Assembly (NCBI GenBank): GCA_030593565.1
Contig: JAUVGW010000013.1
Coordinates: 1-32,492, forward strand
Direction: 5' to 3'
Origin: Phycisphaerae bacterium
GTDB taxonomy: Bacteria > Planctomycetota > Phycisphaerae > UBA1845 > UTPLA1
DNA: 32,492 nucleotides
Shown: positions 264-32,378 of the stretch, piece by piece
Numbering within the stretch: the first letter of the stretch is position 1
How the letters are laid out: each line of letters opens with the position of its first letter
Notes under the pieces: model-generated
Told to the model about the DNA's origin: nothing
Databases searched by the model: none
What the model saw: only the letters and a program-made list of their open reading frames with translations
Program-made: the position numbers and the translations under genes

Positions 264-293
264 GGTTGCTGAAGTTTGTGGTTGTTTGTTCCA

Positions 294-3200
294 ATGAAGC
301 GCCTGCTGAAACAAGTCTTCGCCGTCCTGTCTATTGCCGTCCTGATCGGCGCCGGCATGGTGATCTGGCATGTCTGGCCGCGCGAGCAGCGTTTCTATAG
401 TGATGCTGACACGATTCAAACGTCGGAGGAGGCCGCCGTTATTCGGGAGATTCTATGGCAGCCGCCGGTGCCGCTGTCGGCTGTCTTGAACACGGCGACG
501 GATGACTACGAGCCGCAGCTCAGTTCGGATGGAGGCGTGTTGTTTTTCGTCCGGGGCAAGGCGGGGCAGAATGCGAATATATACTACTGTCAACGAATGA
601 CGGATGGTTGGGGCGAGCCGCAACCGTTGGCGGCGGTGAATACGTCCTATGACGAACTCGGGCCGGAACTGTCCGCAGACGGGAAGACGCTGTACTTCTA
701 CAGCGATCGGCTCGGGGGCAACGGCGGTTATGACCTGTGGGTGTCGCGGCTCGGGGACAACGGGTGGCGCGAGCCGACCAATCTCGGGCCGAATGTGAAC
801 TCGCCGTTCAATGACTACGGCCCCGCCCTGTCGCCGAATGGCGTGACGTTGTATTTCTCGTCGAACCGCCCGCGGCCGGGCGACGCGAACCTGCCGACGC
901 CGTATGCGTGGTCGGCGACGCTGCGCGAGGAGCGCCATCAGCGGGATTACGATTTGTACATGACGTCGATCACGGACGGCGGCGCGGCCGCCGCGGCGCC
1001 GTTGGTCGGCCTGAATACGGAATTCAATGATGGCTCGCCGGCTGTCAGTTCCTATGGCGATTTCCTGTATTTCGCGTCGGATCGGCCGGGCGGATTCGGA
1101 CGGTTCGACCTGTATCGAAGCCGCAGGCTGCATGGCGAGCATGAACCGGTTTCAAACCTCGGCTCGACGGTCAACACACCAGCGAACGAACTCGATCCCG
1201 ACTTGAGCCTTGGCGGCTATGCGCTGCATTTCAGTTCCGATCGGGAGGTTGACGAGGGGCGAACCACCGGCGAGACGCCGGTGCCACAGTTTCGGCATAG
1301 GCCGGTGGACGGCGACGACAGCCCCGCCGACTACAACCTGTACCATACGACGTCGCGGGAGGTCTTCCGCGAAGTGCGAACGCACCGGGCGTCCATCGAC
1401 TGGGCGGGGCTGTGGCGGGAAATCGGTCCGAATCTGATGTGGGCGCTGCTCGCGCTGTTACTGACGCTGTTACTACTGGCGCTGCTGCGAGATTTTCGAG
1501 AGCGCCGAATGGGCCTGTTGACTCGCTGTCTCCTTGCGTCGCTGTTGGTGCATCTATTGCTACTGTTGTTGATGAACGTCGTGGAGGTGTCCACGGGCAT
1601 CGCGAATGTCTTGCGAGGTCGTGGGAAGATCCAGGTTGCGCTGTTGTCGAGTGCGTCGGGTGACGAGATTGCTTCCCAGATTCGCGGCGGCTTGACGGAA
1701 ATCGATATCCCGGCGCCCGTGGATTCGGCTTTGGAGCAGGCGGTTCTGGCGAGCGTGGTCGAGGCCTTCGACGCGGCGACCGAGCTGTACGTCGAGCAGG
1801 CGACGGTCGAGCTTGATGAAACACCGGTGGCCGTCGAATCGCCGCGCGATGCGTCGCAACCGGAGAATGAGCCGTTGCGACCGTTGGACGTTGACGCGCG
1901 GTCGGCGACGATTAAACCGGCGGCGATGGCGGATGTTGCCGTGCCGACGGAGGCGATGCCGATCGAGGCTGTGGAAAACCACGAGCCGACACGACCAACG
2001 GCGGTGGCGAAGCTGTCGAAGAAAGCGCCGGCGTCGGCGATCACGACGACACAGCCCGCGATACCTGTGGTCGATGTCGTGTTGAAACCTGATCGAATGG
2101 GCCTAGCAGCAGCCGAACTTGACGATCGGCCGGCATCGACTGATACGCCGCGCGATTCGCCTCGACCGACCAGCGAGCCGTTACGGTCATTGGATGTTAA
2201 CGTACATCCTGCCGCGATGGCCGCGGCGGCGACGGTGGAACTTGCCATGCCGACGGAATCGGCGCCGATCGAGATTGCCGAGAACCGCGAGCCGACGCCG
2301 GTCGTTGCCGCCGCCGCTCCCGGGCCAGTCAGGCTGGCGGCGGATGCGGCGGTCGGACGGCTTGTTGATACGCAGGCTGCGACGGGGCAGGTGCGAATCC
2401 GCCCACAGTCCGCGTCGCACGACTGGTCGGAGTCGCCGGTGTCTGATGCTACGGTGCGTCTGGCTGCGGATGCCATGCCTGTCGGGCAGGCAACCGCACC
2501 GATTTCCTTGCAGGAAGTCGATGCGTCCCGCCCGCGCCTGGATGATATCGTCATGCCTGTGGTGCCGACGGCGGCACATCTGTGGCACCGGCGTCTCGCC
2601 GGTGGTGAAGCGGCAACCGACAGGTCGCCACGGGTATGCGTGGCGCAACTGGACCGCGAACGAGCGGATGTGGCTGTGCCATCGGGAGCCGAGCCAGCAT
2701 CGTCGACGGATGAACTCGTGTTGCTACGGCCGGCCGGGCGGCCGCAGCTCGGGGCGCAACCGAGCGACGTGCTCGCAGATGCGCCGCCTCCGCGCGACGC
2801 GATGACGGCAGCCATCCCGGCGCGATTCGATCGAGCGGGGACGACTTTCGTTGCGATCGGCGACTCTGTCCGACTGGACCTGGGGCTGCCAACGGAGACC
2901 GAGCCGCCGGGCAGGCACGAGCTGCCCGGCAACGCCATTGGAACGATTCGCGGTCATATCGTCGACGTGGAATCAGGAGAACCGTTGGCCGAAGTCGCGG
3001 TGCGATTGGTGTTGCCGGATGACGACACGGTCTCCGTGACGACGGACGAGGATGGGGCCTACGAGATGATCGTGCCGTCGGTGCCGGAATTCTTCGCGTT
3101 GTCCGCGTCGCTTCCGGACTATGTGCCGGACACGGCGAACATCCCGGCGGCGATGCTGTCGGGTAGGCCGTTGACTGTCGATTTCGAGCTTGCCCGGCAG

Positions 3201-3608
3201 ACCGAATGGGTGGTCGCGCTCGAAGATGAACCGGATGTCCACCACCTTGGCAACGATCGGTTTGAGGGGCGAATCAACAGTCAGTTCCAAAAGTCCAGCG
3301 AGGGGAAGACCTTCCGCGGCAAGTTCGAAATCACGCTCAGCCAGCTTCCGCCGCATTGCACACGGGCGGAGGTGTGGCTGATGGCCAAGGGGGTGCAGTG
3401 CCCGCATCAGATTCGGATCAACGGCCGGCGGCTACGAGGCCGCCTCGACGAGTCTCCCGATGACGGCAGCTTCGGTTCGTTCCAAGCCGAATTCGATCCG
3501 TCATGGCTCGAAGCGGGGACGAACACCATCAAAATCCGCGCGGTATCGTGCAGCGGTGATTTGGACGACTTCGAATTCGTAAATGTTCAAGTCAGGTTGT
3601 GGCCGTAG
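294..3608 (+). CDS. Large membrane protein: N-terminal TM, PD40/TolB-like beta-propeller repeats, TM pair, long disordered region with an internal duplication, carboxypeptidase-regulatory-like domain, C-terminal beta domain
   Basis: ORF 276-3608; likely start ATG at 294 (MKRLLKQVFAVLSIAVLIGAGMVIW). Repeated blades such as PELSADGKTLYFYSDRLGGNGGYDLWVS, TM stretch WALLALLLTLLLLALL, GTIRGHIVDVESGEPLAEVAVRLVLPDDDTVSVTTDEDGAYEM resembles a CarboxypepD_reg domain. Confidence 0.85.
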   Translation: MKRLLKQVFAVLSIAVLIGAGMVIWHVWPREQRFYSDADTIQTSEEAAVIREILWQPPVPLSAVLNTATDDYEPQLSSDGGVLFFVRGKAGQNANIYYCQRMTDGWGEPQPLAAVNTSYDELGPELSADGKTLYFYSDRLGGNGGYDLWVSRLGDNGWREPTNLGPNVNSPFNDYGPALSPNGVTLYFSSNRPRPGDANLPTPYAWSATLREERHQRDYDLYMTSITDGGAAAAAPLVGLNTEFNDGSPAVSSYGDFLYFASDRPGGFGRFDLYRSRRLHGEHEPVSNLGSTVNTPANELDPDLSLGGYALHFSSDREVDEGRTTGETPVPQFRHRPVDGDDSPADYNLYHTTSREVFREVRTHRASIDWAGLWREIGPNLMWALLALLLTLLLLALLRDFRERRMGLLTRCLLASLLVHLLLLLLMNVVEVSTGIANVLRGRGKIQVALLSSASGDEIASQIRGGLTEIDIPAPVDSALEQAVLASVVEAFDAATELYVEQATVELDETPVAVESPRDASQPENEPLRPLDVDARSATIKPAAMADVAVPTEAMPIEAVENHEPTRPTAVAKLSKKAPASAITTTQPAIPVVDVVLKPDRMGLAAAELDDRPASTDTPRDSPRPTSEPLRSLDVNVHPAAMAAAATVELAMPTESAPIEIAENREPTPVVAAAAPGPVRLAADAAVGRLVDTQAATGQVRIRPQSASHDWSESPVSDATVRLAADAMPVGQATAPISLQEVDASRPRLDDIVMPVVPTAAHLWHRRLAGGEAATDRSPRVCVAQLDRERADVAVPSGAEPASSTDELVLLRPAGRPQLGAQPSDVLADAPPPRDAMTAAIPARFDRAGTTFVAIGDSVRLDLGLPTETEPPGRHELPGNAIGTIRGHIVDVESGEPLAEVAVRLVLPDDDTVSVTTDEDGAYEMIVPSVPEFFALSASLPDYVPDTANIPAAMLSGRPLTVDFELARQTEWVVALEDEPDVHHLGNDRFEGRINSQFQKSSEGKTFRGKFEITLSQLPPHCTRAEVWLMAKGVQCPHQIRINGRRLRGRLDESPDDGSFGSFQAEFDPSWLEAGTNTIKIRAVSCSGDLDDFEFVNVQVRLWP
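1265..1289 (-). repeat. GTGG-headed palindrome inside a CDS
   Basis: CACCGGCGAGACGCCGGTGCCACAG, read as TGETPVPQ. Confidence 0.9.
2580..2604 (+). repeat. GTGG-headed palindrome inside a CDS
   Basis: CTGTGGCACCGGCGTCTCGCCGGTG, read as LWHRRLAG(G). Confidence 0.9.
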
Positions 3609-4330: not shown

Positions 4331-4405
4331 GAGGAGATTGCCCAATGGTCGCGGCAGGTCAACGACTTGGCCGACGTGGCATGTTTCTCGGATACTGGCG
4401 GAAAA

Positions 4406-4645
4406 CGCTTGACTCCGAGTTGGCGGCGTGGTATGTTTTAGTTACAAGTCCAACGCTCACATGCGCGTTCGGCGCTGCCCTGGAAGCGGGGCCGTCGGGT
4501 TGCCATGCGGTGGACGGCCACGTCGTCTGAGTGTCGTAGGTCCTTTGGTCGGGGGGCGAACAAGGCGGAGGCGGCAAATCATGAAAACGCGCGTATTGGC
4601 TTCGTTCGTCGCGGCGCTGTGGGCCGGCGGTGCGCTGGGACAGGT
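4406..4645 (+). repeat. Upstream/signal-peptide duplication, copy 1
   Basis: CGCTTGACTCCGAGTTGGCGGCGTGGTAT...AAGTCCAACGCTCACATGCGCGTTCGGC shared with 6628-6829. Confidence 0.88.
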
Positions 4646-6377
4646 GTCGCCCCCGGCCGTGATCGAGTTGGTGGCTCACGAGGGCGATCCGGCCCCGGGG
4701 ATGCCCGGTGTCACGCTGCTGTCGGTCATCCACCCGGTGATGGATGCCGCCGGCAATGTGTTGTTCCGGGGCACGCTCGGTGGCCCGGGGATTGACACGA
4801 GCAATGACACGGCGCTCTTCTACGGCCCGCCCGGCGCGGTCCAGCCGCTGATCTGGAAAGGTGAGCCGGCCCCGGATATGCCCGAAGGCTTCGTGATCGC
4901 CGAGCTACCGATCACGGCGGAGAACGTGTCCGAGGGTGCGGACGCCGAGCCCGCCTGGATCGCGTTTACCGCGGGCGTGGCCGGGCCGGGCATCGTGCCC
5001 GGTGTGAACAGCCGGGTACTGTTCGTCGGCCCGCCGGGAGATTTCCGCAAGGTCCTCCAGGCTGGCGATCAGGCTCCGAACTGTGAGCCGGGCGTGACCA
5101 TCGCCGAAGCACCCTTCGGCGGCCGGCTGAGCGACAACGGCACGCTGTATGTATCGGCCGATCTGGTCGGCTCCGGCGTCCCGTACGATAAGGCACGCTG
5201 GATCGGCACGCGGGACAACCTAGAGCTGGTGTACCGCAAGGGCATGCAGGCCCCCGGCTGCGACCCGGGCGTGGTCTTCGCCTCGGTGGACACCATCCGG
5301 CACAACGACGCCGGACAGATCGCCTTCCGCGGCCTCCTGGCCGGGATCGGCGTCACATCCGGCAATAACACGGGGCGCTGGCTGGGCGGGCCGGGGACGC
5401 TCACCAAGATTAGCCGTGATGGCGATCAGGTGCCGGACATGGACGAGGGCGTGACCTGGAAAATCGCGGCTGGTATTGTGACAACCACCAACACGCCACC
5501 CGGCCTCGCCTGGGGCGATATTGCCGAAAGCGGGGACGTTCAGGGCAAGGGCGTTACCGGCGACAACGATTGTGTACTCTTTCTGGGCGATTATGACGGC
5601 GGGCTCCAACTGATTGCCAGAGAGGGCGACCCGGCCCCCGAGGCGGGCCCCGACGTGACCTTCGCCGGCTTCGCCTACTGCTGGATCAACAACCAGGCCG
5701 AGGCGTTTTACCTGGTCAAGTACGCCGGGCCGGGCATCACCGACTCCAACAAGTGGGCGACGTATTTCGGCCCGTATGGCGCCGGTGAGCTGACGCAGCG
5801 CGACGGCGATCCGGCCCCGACCTTCCCGCCGGAGGTCACGCTCTGGCGCATCGCCGCCGCAGGTGGGCTCGCGGCCATGAACGACGTGGGTGACGTCATC
5901 ACCCCGACCCAGATCGCCGGTCCCGGCGTCACCGACGACGACAAGGTGGTCCTGTGGCTGCGCCATCGCGTTCTTCAGCGCTGGGTGCCGCTGCTCCGCA
6001 GCGGCAGCATCATCGGCGGGCGTACGGTCTATGCTCCCGACGAGTACGATTTCGGATTCGGATACTGCAACCAAACCAGCGGCGCCGACGGTGTGCGCCA
6101 GGGCATGAACGACCTCGGCATGCTGGCGATGGTGCTCGAGTTCACCGACGGCACCGAGGGCGTATTCCGCATATCCCCGCCGGTCTTCGGTGATGCAAAC
6201 TGCGACGGGACCCTCGATGGATTGGACATTGCGCCGTTCGTTCTGCTCCTGCTGGACCGCGCGGCGTACGAAGCCCAGTACCCAGGCTGCCACGGGGATG
6301 TGTCCTGCGACCTGGACGGAAACGCCGCCATCGACAGCGGCGACATCGAGATGTTCGTGGCCTTGCTCGGCGCGTAG
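4581..6377 (+). CDS. Secreted protein with about seven ~60-aa NxxGxxAF-like repeats and a C-terminal dockerin-like domain
   Basis: Signal peptide MKTRVLASFVAALWAGGALGQ; recurring EGDPAPGMPGVTL / DGDQVPDMDEGVTW / NDAGQIAFRG; C-term GDANCDGTLDGLDIAPFVLLLL...DLDGNAAIDSGDIEMFVALLGA. Confidence 0.88.
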   Translation: MKTRVLASFVAALWAGGALGQVSPPAVIELVAHEGDPAPGMPGVTLLSVIHPVMDAAGNVLFRGTLGGPGIDTSNDTALFYGPPGAVQPLIWKGEPAPDMPEGFVIAELPITAENVSEGADAEPAWIAFTAGVAGPGIVPGVNSRVLFVGPPGDFRKVLQAGDQAPNCEPGVTIAEAPFGGRLSDNGTLYVSADLVGSGVPYDKARWIGTRDNLELVYRKGMQAPGCDPGVVFASVDTIRHNDAGQIAFRGLLAGIGVTSGNNTGRWLGGPGTLTKISRDGDQVPDMDEGVTWKIAAGIVTTTNTPPGLAWGDIAESGDVQGKGVTGDNDCVLFLGDYDGGLQLIAREGDPAPEAGPDVTFAGFAYCWINNQAEAFYLVKYAGPGITDSNKWATYFGPYGAGELTQRDGDPAPTFPPEVTLWRIAAAGGLAAMNDVGDVITPTQIAGPGVTDDDKVVLWLRHRVLQRWVPLLRSGSIIGGRTVYAPDEYDFGFGYCNQTSGADGVRQGMNDLGMLAMVLEFTDGTEGVFRISPPVFGDANCDGTLDGLDIAPFVLLLLDRAAYEAQYPGCHGDVSCDLDGNAAIDSGDIEMFVALLGA

Positions 6378-6552: not shown

Positions 6553-6627
6553 AGTGCGCGGGGGGAAGGGAGAAGCAGCGGCCGGGTCGGGGCCGACGGG
6601 GCTTGAGCGTCGGACATCTGCGGGATG

Positions 6628-6829
6628 CGCTTGACTCCGAGTTGGCGGCGTGGTATCTTATCAATAACAAGTCCAACGCTCACATGCGCGTTCGGCCCTG
6701 CGTTGGAAGCGGAGCCGTCCTGTCACCATGCCGTGGGCGGACGAGGAGGAGGCAGCACATCATGAACACGCGCGTATTGGCTTTGTTCGTCGCGGCGCTG
6801 TGGGCGAGTGGTGCGCTGGGGCAGGTGTA
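6628..6829 (+). repeat. Upstream/signal-peptide duplication, copy 2
   Basis: CGCTTGACTCCGAGTTGGCGGCGTGGTAT...AAGTCCAACGCTCACATGCGCGTTCGGC. Confidence 0.88.
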
Positions 6830-8537
6830 CAGGCCCGAGGTGCCGATTGAGTTGGTGGCGCATGAGGGGGATCCGGTGCCGGGGATTGCCGGCGCGACGT
6901 TCACCTGGTTCTCGCCGCCGCAGATCGACGCCGAGGGCAATGTGTTGCTGCGAGCTTGGATGGCCGGCCCCGGCATCGATGCCACAAACGACGCGGCGAT
7001 CTGGTTCGGCCCGCCGGGGGCGATCCAGATGGTCGCCCGCGACGGCGATCCGGCCCCGGACATGGCGCCGGGTGTGATCTACACCGACGTGAGCTACTGG
7101 GCGCTTGTGTCGGAGACGGGTTGGCTGGCGTTCACGGCCTGGGTGTCCGGCCCCGGCATCACGGAAGGCGAGAACGACGCGGTCGTGTTCTGTGGTCCGC
7201 CGGGGGATTTTCAAAATGCGCTACAGACCGGCGATCAGGCACCCGGCTTCTGGCCGGGCGTGGAAGTATTCGAATCCGGTTATGAGTCCCTGGGCGCGGG
7301 ATTGACGGATAACGGCACGCTCTCGATCGGCGGCGGCGTGAGGGGGGTGGACCTGCCGCCGGACGGGACGCGGGCGTACTGGATGGGCTCGCGGGACAAC
7401 CTGGAGTTGATGGTCTGGTGGGGGATGCCCGCCATCGGATGCCCCGAATGTGACCCGGGCGTCACGCTCGACTGGGAGGACCTGCTCTCGAGAAACGACG
7501 CGGGGCAGATGACGTTTCGGGGCGGGATGAGCGGGCCGGGGATCAACCCGACGAATGACGCCGGGCGTTGGCTCGGGTCCGCGGGGGTTTGGGAGATGCT
7601 GCACCGCGACGGGCAGGCGGCCCCGGAATTCGGCGAACTCGTCACGATCATCTCGGCCACGGGCTCCCTGCACCCACTTAACCGGCACGGCGACAAGGTA
7701 AACAGAATAGAGCTCCAGGGGCCGGGCATCACGGCCGACAACGACTGGGTCCTGGTCGCCGGGCAACCTGATCCCATGGAGGTCGTTATCCGCGAGGGCG
7801 ACATGGTGCCCGAGGCCGGCGAGGATGTCTATGTGCGATCGATTGGCAACGCATACATCAACGACCTGCACCACATCCTCTATCGCCTGAGATACGACGG
7901 GCCTTCCATTGATGATACGAATGAGTTTGGGATCTACTACGGGCCGTACACCGATCCGCGGTTGATCCTCCGCGACGGAGACGCTGCCCCCTACTTCGCT
8001 AGCGGCACCACATTGGTAGGCCTCGGCGGGTTGCAGAGCTTTATGGCGATGAACGACATGGGGGATTTCGCCGGCATGACTTCGACCGACAAAGCCCCCC
8101 CCGGGGGTGAGAGCGTCGTTGCTCTTTGGATTTGGCATGGTCTCACGGGGCAATACGTCCCCATCCTGGAGCCGGGTGCGCACTTCCACGGCCGAACGGC
8201 TACAACCGATACATTAGGTTGTTTGGGCGAGTATTGGAAACTCACGGGCGGCGGCGACGGCCGACCGCAGAGCTTCAACGACGGCCGGCAGTTGGCGGTG
8301 CAACTGGACTTCACCGACGGCACGCGCGGCGTGTACCGGATCGGTCCGCCCTTGCTAGGCGATACAGACGGGGACGGAGTCGTCACGCTCGCCGAGTTTG
8401 CATCGTTTGACGCGTGTATGACCGGCCCAGGCGGCGAGCAGGACGAAGGTTGCGATCCGCTGGACTTCGACCTGGACAACGACATCGACCTGGCGGACTT
8501 CCGCGCGCTTCAGGTCCTCTTCGGCGAGTCGCGATAG
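6762..8537 (+). CDS. Tandem paralogue of 4581-6377: secreted NxxGxxAF-like repeat protein with a dockerin/EF-hand-like C-terminus
   Basis: Signal peptide MNTRVLALFVAALWASGALGQ; ELVAHEGDPVPGIAGATF, NDAGQMTFRGGMSGPGI; C-term DTDGDGVVTLAEF...DFDLDNDIDLADFRALQVLFG. Confidence 0.88.
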   Translation: MNTRVLALFVAALWASGALGQVYRPEVPIELVAHEGDPVPGIAGATFTWFSPPQIDAEGNVLLRAWMAGPGIDATNDAAIWFGPPGAIQMVARDGDPAPDMAPGVIYTDVSYWALVSETGWLAFTAWVSGPGITEGENDAVVFCGPPGDFQNALQTGDQAPGFWPGVEVFESGYESLGAGLTDNGTLSIGGGVRGVDLPPDGTRAYWMGSRDNLELMVWWGMPAIGCPECDPGVTLDWEDLLSRNDAGQMTFRGGMSGPGINPTNDAGRWLGSAGVWEMLHRDGQAAPEFGELVTIISATGSLHPLNRHGDKVNRIELQGPGITADNDWVLVAGQPDPMEVVIREGDMVPEAGEDVYVRSIGNAYINDLHHILYRLRYDGPSIDDTNEFGIYYGPYTDPRLILRDGDAAPYFASGTTLVGLGGLQSFMAMNDMGDFAGMTSTDKAPPGGESVVALWIWHGLTGQYVPILEPGAHFHGRTATTDTLGCLGEYWKLTGGGDGRPQSFNDGRQLAVQLDFTDGTRGVYRIGPPLLGDTDGDGVVTLAEFASFDACMTGPGGEQDEGCDPLDFDLDNDIDLADFRALQVLFGESR

Positions 8538-13351: not shown

Positions 13352-13399
13352 ACGCCGTTCCCGACCGCGAAAACCACCGGCGAGACGCCGGTGCCACAG
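13352..13399 (-). repeat. GTGG-headed palindrome with extended conserved body
   Basis: CGCCGTTCCCGACCGCGAAAACCACCGGCGAGACGCCGGTGCCACAG; body resembles the reverse complement of 23938-23965. Confidence 0.75.
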
Positions 13400-19092: not shown

Positions 19093-19325
19093 CGGATACC
19101 TCCAAACGGCGATACCGTTCACACACCGAGCCACTGGGGCACGAGCGGGACCCAACTGTTATCGGAAGATTCGGGAGGGAACTTGGGAGCCGCCGATGGG
19201 CGTCACCGGCCCCTCCAGCAGTCCACCGATGGTGCCGCGCCTGGCCACATCGTCATCAGACGACTGCCCGCGTTCTCAGCCCTGGGAGGCCCGCCGACGC
19301 CTTAGAAGCTGTTTCAGAATCCCAT

Positions 19326-19377
19326 GTGGCACCGGCGTCTCGCCGGTGGGGTCACAGGCGGGACGCCTGTGCCACAG
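19326..19377. repeat. GTGG-headed inverted pair downstream of flagellin
   Basis: GTGGCACCGGCGTCTCGCCGGTG ... CACAGGCGGGACGCCTGTGCCACAG. Confidence 0.9.
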
Positions 19378-25637: not shown

Positions 25638-25742
25638 AGAATGTCGTGACACCGCCCCTCATTGGCATTTCATCTTTCATCCTTCTCCCTTCTCCCCCGC
25701 GCTCCCCTTCGGGTCGCAGCTAAACGTCGCGATGCAGCATAT

Positions 25743-25814
25743 TTCGACTTTCGACTTTCGGCTTTCAGCTTTCGACTTTCGACTTTCGACTTTCACCTTT
25801 CGACTTTCGACTTC
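25743..25814. repeat. Degenerate heptamer tandem repeat (TTTCGAC)n
   Basis: TTTCGACTTTCGACTTTCGGCTTTCAGCTTTCGACTTTCGACTTTCGACTTTCACCTTTCGACTTTCGAC. Confidence 0.92.
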
Positions 25815-25842
25815 ATCCTTCCTTCCGCCCCCGCCGCCACCA

Positions 25843-26874: not shown

Positions 26875-26932
26875 TTCTGTGGCACCGGCGTCTCGCCGGT
26901 GATCCCACCGGCGAGACGCCGGTGCCACAGAA
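26875..26932. repeat. Perfect 27-nt inverted pair of the GTGG palindrome (REPIN-like)
   Basis: TTCTGTGGCACCGGCGTCTCGCCGGTG-ATCC-CACCGGCGAGACGCCGGTGCCACAGAA. Confidence 0.95.
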
Positions 26933-31696: not shown

Positions 31697-31727
31697 GTAG
31701 GGTGCGTCCCGGACGCACCTTTTTTCT
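31697..31727 (+). repeat. GTAG-headed REP, left flank of the RAYT, with T-tract
   Basis: GTAG GGTGCGTCC-C-GGACGCACC TTTTTTCTT; 9-bp perfect stem. Confidence 0.9.
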
Positions 31728-32303
31728 TCATTCACCGGCGCGGCCCTCGACATCACCGAAGTCGGGCGGCTTGGCGGCTTCGCCGTCGCACGAGCACATC
31801 CAATCGTTTGCATACTCTCCCTGGCGCACCCACTTTGCGAAGCTCGAATGCGGCCACGCATGTGGACAGCTCGCAAGGCCATGCTTCACTGGATTGTAAT
31901 GGATGTAATCCAAGTGCCGACCGTAGTCGTCATCGTTGCGGATGGCGTGGTCCCAGAACCGGCGTTGCCAGACGCCGCGTTCGCCGCGCTTGCGTCGTGA
32001 CGCGCTGCGCGGTGTCTCGGTGCCGCCGCCTGCAAGGAACAGGTCCGTGAATCGCCCCTTGATCGCAGACCAGCGCATTGAGTAGCGTGTGTCATCCGGC
32101 GGCAGCGTCCAGAGACAGTGCAAATGGTCCGGCAGGATGACGATGGCGTCGATCTCGAAGGGGTGGTGGGTGAGTTCTTCTCGAAAGGCGGTTCGTAGGA
32201 AATCCAACGACGCCGGGCCGGTCAAGATCGGTCGGCGGAAGTTTGTCACGACCGTGAAGAAGAACGTCGCACCGGGTGCAATGGGACGTTGATATTGTGG
32301 CAT
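31728..32303 (-). CDS. REP-associated tyrosine transposase (RAYT, IS200/Y1-HUH type)
   Basis: TFFFTVVTNFRRPIL, IVILPDHLHCLWTLP (HUH H-x-H), VWQRRFWDHAIRNDDDYGRHLDYIHYNPVKHGLA (catalytic Tyr region). Confidence 0.93.
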   Translation of the reverse strand: MPQYQRPIAPGATFFFTVVTNFRRPILTGPASLDFLRTAFREELTHHPFEIDAIVILPDHLHCLWTLPPDDTRYSMRWSAIKGRFTDLFLAGGGTETPRSASRRKRGERGVWQRRFWDHAIRNDDDYGRHLDYIHYNPVKHGLASCPHAWPHSSFAKWVRQGEYANDWMCSCDGEAAKPPDFGDVEGRAGE

Positions 32304-32355
32304 CGTTCCGTGACGTTAGCTGGCGCCGCCGATTTGGGCAAGAAGAAAGAGAAAA

Positions 32356-32378
32356 GGTGCGTCCGGGACGCACACTAC
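32356..32378 (-). repeat. GTAG-headed REP, right flank of the RAYT, inverted
   Basis: Minus strand GTAG TGTGCGTCC-C-GGACGCACC then TTTTCTCTTTC. Confidence 0.88.

Follow-up and report, generated by a model that had tools for sequence, protein, structure and literature searches.

A GTGG-headed REP carried in frame in a Phycisphaerae protein, and a RAYT embedded in isoleucyl-tRNA synthetase as its probable mobiliser

The window, by which we mean the whole 32,492-nucleotide stretch of DNA analysed here (Phycisphaerae bacterium, assembly GCA_030593565.1, contig JAUVGW010000013.1), carries near its start a plus-strand gene at 294–3608 that encodes a PD40 beta-propeller, a membrane segment, a low-complexity linker, and a CarboxypepD_reg-like domain. 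The open reading frame spans 276–3608, its likeliest start is the ATG at 294, and it is intact, with no frameshift. Two exact copies of a 25-mer, CACCGGCGAGACGCCGGTGCCACAG, lie within this gene in opposite orientations. The plus-strand copy at 1265–1289 is in frame and read as TGETPVPQ at residue 331 of ORF 276–3608, and the minus-strand copy at 2580–2604 is read as LWHRRLAG at residue 769, just as an earlier inspection of the letters without database searches (the sequence-only reading) had described. That reading also listed three intergenic copies, of which the exact plus-strand copy at 13375–13399 is indeed single, while those placed at 19326 and 26875 are not single copies but two inverted pairs (REPINs). 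The first pair spans 19324–19377 and consists of a minus-strand copy at 19324–19348 with 1 mismatch and a plus-strand copy at 19353–19377 with 3 mismatches; the second spans 26877–26930, with exact copies at 26877–26901 (minus) and 26906–26930 (plus) separated by 4 nt. The shuffled expectation for the 25-mer in the window is 0.00. Elsewhere in the window, the adjacent paralogous genes at 4369–4880 and 6591–7064 have upstream regions that are 80–92% identical, a recent local duplication, and an intergenic array of the 7-nt unit TTTCGAC/TTTCGGC occupies 25742–25832, its motif being among the commonest 18-mers of the genome sample.

Genome-wide, 401 copies of the 25-mer are found at ≤3 mismatches (189 forward, 212 reverse) on many contigs; a control with the reversed sequence gave no genome-wide match at the same threshold. 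Read on its opposite strand, the 25-mer is CT-GTGG-CACCGGCG-TCT-CGCCGGTG, that is, a GTGG head followed by a hairpin. Known REPs consist of a 5′ GT(A/G)G head and then a GC-rich palindrome (Nunvar 2010, PMC2817692), and by its anatomy the 25-mer is a GTGG-headed REP/REPIN. Among about 190 sampled hairpins the head is GTGG on 153 and GGAG on 31. The copies are flanked in three ways, as inverted pairs (20 of which, in the genome sample, are spaced 27 nt), as composites with a sister hairpin, GGGGAGCATCGGCGTCTCGCCGGTA, and as singlets with unrelated flanks. No clean empty site that would define the exact ends of the insertion was found in the same genome. The sequence-only reading had seen that the core contains no stop in any of the six frames. 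This is correct, and it is an ordinary property, since 36% of random hairpins of the same shape and GC content share it.

Homologues of the window gene occur in 38 of the 61 genomes searched, its own genome counted, with full-length ones among the relatives. The comparison of orthologues that the sequence-only reading had proposed could thus be made at the 1265 site. TGETPVPQ is present in none of 19 aligned relatives; 18 of them have a corresponding loop that is shorter by 10 to 18 residues, and the remaining one (L045) has a loop of similar length and unrelated sequence. Because these 19 orthologues lack the peptide, the alignment identifies the 25-mer at 1265 as a derived in-frame insertion. 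LWHRRLAG falls in a linker for which there is no usable orthologue alignment, and the copy at 2580 is a candidate insertion. The proposal of a protein-invading palindrome therefore stands with respect to dispersal and in-frame insertion, at 1265 and in the seven other genes described below.

Genes were called by codon usage, with home-made predictions, in about 100 stretches of the genome (1.2 Mb, 78% coding), the majority selected for the presence of an exact 25-mer on their contig. In this sample, 138 of 192 copies are intergenic, 52 are in predicted genes, and 2 lie at edges. Pfam matches show that the hosts include UvrA, a UvrD-type helicase, a Ser/Thr kinase, a xanthine-dehydrogenase-family protein, NAD(P)H-hydrate dehydratase, an ABC-2 transporter, and glycosyltransferases, among others; UvrA carries an in-frame inverted REP pair, LWHRRSGGEVTGETPVLQ. 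In seven other genes for which a composite query returned orthologues covering the site, the REP peptide stands opposite a gap in the orthologues. For a DUF6599 gene (L092), the orthologue search gave no match spanning the REP site. Several genes contain tandem REP units of 33 nt, or 11 residues. Such in-frame units, for example repeats of GSIGVPPVK, adjoin or replace single REPs at L070 (7736–7793), L117 (4805–4862 and 6431–6488), L120 (from 4144), and L229. A kinase of another genome (L174, G011) that is orthologous to the REP-bearing kinase L077 has another REP-like peptide, GAGVSPA, at the corresponding loop, which suggests that insertions occurred there independently.

The sequence-only reading held that freedom from stops makes the palindrome tolerable wherever it lands, and two results speak against this. 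Ten other palindromic families of the genome are likewise stop-free in six frames, and only 12 of their 423 copies are in genes, as compared with 47 of 177 for the 25-mer. Stop-freeness was accordingly rejected as the cause of gene residence; the scarcity of the other REP-like families within genes makes such residence a trait of the 25-mer family. Moreover, in 13 of 18 well-supported in-gene cases the element is read in one of two of the six frames, TGETPVPQ or CGTGVSPV (P = 0.0009), both of which consist of small, flexible residues. Since the well-supported copies concentrate in two frames, selection on the REP peptide after landing is suggested. The genome sample (L060–L159) holds about twenty palindromic or dispersed repeat families in all, several of them inverted pairs with fixed spacing, and another repeat family, AGCCGGCTCGTCTCGAGCCGGC, is in genes in 7 of 50 cases.

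There are several Y1_Tnp/RAYT matches in this genome. One is a free RAYT gene within the window, at 31731–32303 on the minus strand, which lies between inverted GTAG-headed REPs, GTAGGGTGCGTCCCGGACGCACC; the unit, 31697–32378, is a textbook REPtron of another REP family, with none of 11 sampled copies in genes. This RAYT was rejected as the cognate mobiliser of the 25-mer, as the inverted REPs that flank it belong to the unrelated GTAG family. A second RAYT is not a free gene. On contig C438, a 1385-aa open frame (L219, 8056–12213) is an isoleucyl-tRNA synthetase (IleRS; TIGR00392, 835 bits) into which a complete RAYT (NF047646, 86 bits against a cut-off of 80) is inserted in frame, between VFVRFPLV and SLLVWTTTPWT. 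The insert is flanked by a perfect 24-bp inverted repeat, GGGGAGCATCGGCGTCCCGCCGGT, whose two arms are translated as GSIGVPPV and DRRDADAP. This repeat is the GGAG-headed sister hairpin found beside the 25-mer in intergenic composites. Alignment with the E. coli TnpA_REP (PDB 4ER8) shows that the HUH motif and the Tyr of the C438 RAYT are intact. In the assembly, which is 87% complete, this interrupted gene is the only clear isoleucyl-tRNA synthetase.

These observations lead us to a model, which as a whole we consider probable, in which the 25-mer REP spreads as inverted pairs and single hairpins through a RAYT that presumably cuts and rejoins the single-strand REP, a putative activity. About a quarter of the copies are in genes, and these would survive in surface loops as short flexible peptides, most of them in the small-residue frames and some amplified to 11-residue tandem repeats. 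The likeliest mobilising enzyme would be the IleRS-embedded RAYT between its translated inverted REPs, not a free gene. Residence in an essential protein would give the RAYT–REP pair steady expression, and would guard it against loss, since the majority of deletions and frameshifts would also destroy the host gene. That the embedded RAYT is active, that it mobilises the 25-mer family, and that it benefits in these two ways are our inferences. Counting against the model, the repeat that flanks the IleRS RAYT is the GGAG-headed sister, which shares 18 of 23 positions with the 25-mer, and not the exact GTGG-headed 25-mer itself, and contig C9 carries a free RAYT with a similar hairpin to one side of it.

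The C9 hairpin has 2 mismatches and lies some 30 nt from the RAYT frame. Together with the preponderance of intergenic copies (138/192) and the precedent of in-gene REPs elsewhere, it would fit an ordinary REP family moved by a free RAYT, either that of C9 or one missing from the assembly, with in-gene copies as rare surviving accidents and the embedded RAYTs a separate matter. No RAYT between two exact 25-mer copies was found among the RAYT loci of the 87%-complete assembly, and another RAYT may be missing from it. Nevertheless, only the IleRS RAYT of this genome has inverted REPs of the 25-mer hairpin type on both sides, and accidental survival does not fit with other REP-like families that almost never reside in genes (12/423). 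We therefore regard a free mobiliser as unlikely, and retain the IleRS-embedded RAYT as the preferred candidate.

The IleRS arrangement recurs in other genomes. In related genomes a RAYT is found in IleRS, either in the position just described or at another one that precedes KMSKS, or else in PurH, and REP peptides adjoin it nearly always. In a class-wide search, 71 of 103 listed RAYT matches are in frames of at least 500 aa; frame lengths here are stop to stop, so this is an upper estimate. A survey of 80 named loci and 19 more, with hosts confirmed by Pfam/NCBIfam for representatives, identified RAYTs in IleRS, ValRS, LeuRS, AlaRS, ThrRS, PurH, RdgB/Ham1, RecG, PriA, a DinG/YoaA-type helicase, an HscA/DnaK chaperone, GcvP, an SNF2 helicase, and DNA methylases. 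Embedded RAYT–REP units occupy fixed loop sites of many essential proteins in Planctomycetota, Verrucomicrobiota, and other phyla. One RdgB site is filled by a RAYT in both Planctomycetota and Cyanobacteriota, and one DUF1156 methylase site is filled in genomes labelled Myxococcota, Chloroflexota, Planctomycetota, and Bacteroidota. The IleRS site is empty in nine relatives. Searches of the ten IleRS-RAYT genomes gave no further IleRS above threshold, and those of the ten PurH-RAYT genomes no further PurH; by our reading, the weaker matches are of the size and score that other class I synthetases would give. ValRS and DinG-type helicases (L342, L345, L346, and L349–L352) carry RAYTs of another subgroup, in which the HUH motif is preceded by an additional stretch, and in the PurH of G035 (L240/L271) the RAYT is followed by a long in-frame array, HRRDACATSGEEGD.

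Of 50 embedded RAYTs, 32 have REP-like hairpins on each flank, as compared with 0.2 expected, and H58, H60, and Y123 are invariant in 15 embedded RAYTs that are 43–72% identical to the first. A strict split in which GTAG heads mark free RAYTs and GTGG or GGAG heads mark embedded ones was rejected, as GTAG heads occur with 9 of 50 embedded and 11 of 32 free RAYTs, a tendency only. On a RAYT tree with some poorly resolved parts, 24 changes are required to account for the host labels, versus 50.5 when shuffled, which we read as RAYTs probably held mostly at one host site, with repeated switches; the recurring sites could also reflect common descent and loss instead of repeated entry. The predicted structure of an RdgB–RAYT chain (6 sequences, mean pLDDT 66) has two domains, with a confident RAYT at about 220–352 lying between two RdgB strands and low-confidence linkers at 185–214 and 356–372. 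In Foldseek searches this model matched RdgB structures with a TM of 0.84 (of target) and 4ER8 with 0.66. Among the Pfam matches of 18 embedded proteins, there is no intein splicing domain and no LAGLIDADG or other homing endonuclease domain.

Conserved catalytic residues and sites, and the presence of one unit per gene, would also be expected if the embedded RAYTs were domesticated, serving their hosts by, for example, DNA or RNA binding in IleRS or PurH, and were kept by selection rather than being selfish. We think this somewhat less probable even than a free mobiliser, given that the hosts are functionally unrelated, that the inserts are patchy among close relatives, with empty sites, and that the flanks retain REP hairpins and arrays. 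Finally, although most of the genomes are metagenome-assembled and stop-to-stop frames overestimate length, it is very improbable that the fusions are only apparent, with RAYT genes beside or within broken host genes, as dozens of independent genomes, one of which is a single large contig (G311, with a ValRS–RAYT), show host domains that are divided at the insert and continue beyond it in the same frame, the interrupted gene is the only copy, and the same sites recur.

The reading we prefer is thus that the 25-mer in the window would be a satellite of a RAYT–REP unit, and that such units would persist as protein-embedded elements. More broadly, and with odds that we put a little short of even, RAYT–REP units may form a protein-invading selfish class that enters loops of essential proteins in frame, is bounded by translated REP linkers, occupies intein-like fixed sites without splicing, and seeds REPs into other proteins, the window 25-mer being one such satellite.

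The closest known system is the REPtron, that is, REP/REPIN with RAYT (Nunvar 2010, PMC2817692; Bertels and Rainey 2011, PMC3116915), with which the present family shares the GT(A/G)G head and hairpin, the hundreds of copies, the inverted pairs, and, with the sister hairpin as the flanking REP, a RAYT between inverted REPs. It differs in that the REPs of that system are extragenic (in SBW25, only 14 of 1,067 of the top 16-mers overlap genes), whereas about a quarter of the copies here are in genes, and in that the RAYT here is itself carried in frame by a host protein. In-frame GTAG/CGTC REPs within genes, uvrA and uvrD-type genes among them, have been described (Di Nocera 2013, PMC3733652). 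That paper also places intragenic REPs in a genome of the PVC superphylum, that of Opitutus terrae, and appears to describe REPs but not RAYTs within genes.

The sequence-only reading had drawn an analogy to Rickettsia palindromic elements (RPEs), which likewise are palindromes found in frame in many unrelated proteins and absent from orthologues. The analogy is apt in these respects, but the GTGG-headed REP/REPIN anatomy and the mostly intergenic location of the 25-mer depart from it. RPEs are CGTC-tagged or longer elements in Rickettsia (PMC3733652) with no RAYT link, while the present hairpins have GTGG or GGAG heads and neither a CGTC tag nor RPE sequence. Inteins and homing endonucleases also occupy fixed sites in frame in essential genes and are patchy across lineages; the embedded RAYTs, however, are in variable loops rather than active-site motifs and show no sign of removal from the protein. 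A 2018 survey (PMC6006769) set aside RAYT proteins that were longer than expected, treating them as fused genes or faulty annotations, and embedded RAYTs may be just what it lost in this way. A literature search that was thin on subscription journals and preprints turned up no account of RAYTs within tRNA synthetases, PurH, or the other hosts, and nothing on the REP peptides. In-gene REPs, even in uvrA and uvrD-type genes, are already known; the RAYTs embedded in essential proteins appear to be the new part.

RAYT transposases, which are mostly single-copy, persist for very long times. Residence in essential proteins would offer a direct answer to how they do so in many lineages, and it describes a route by which mobile DNA brings new linkers, tandem peptides, and whole inserted domains into housekeeping enzymes.
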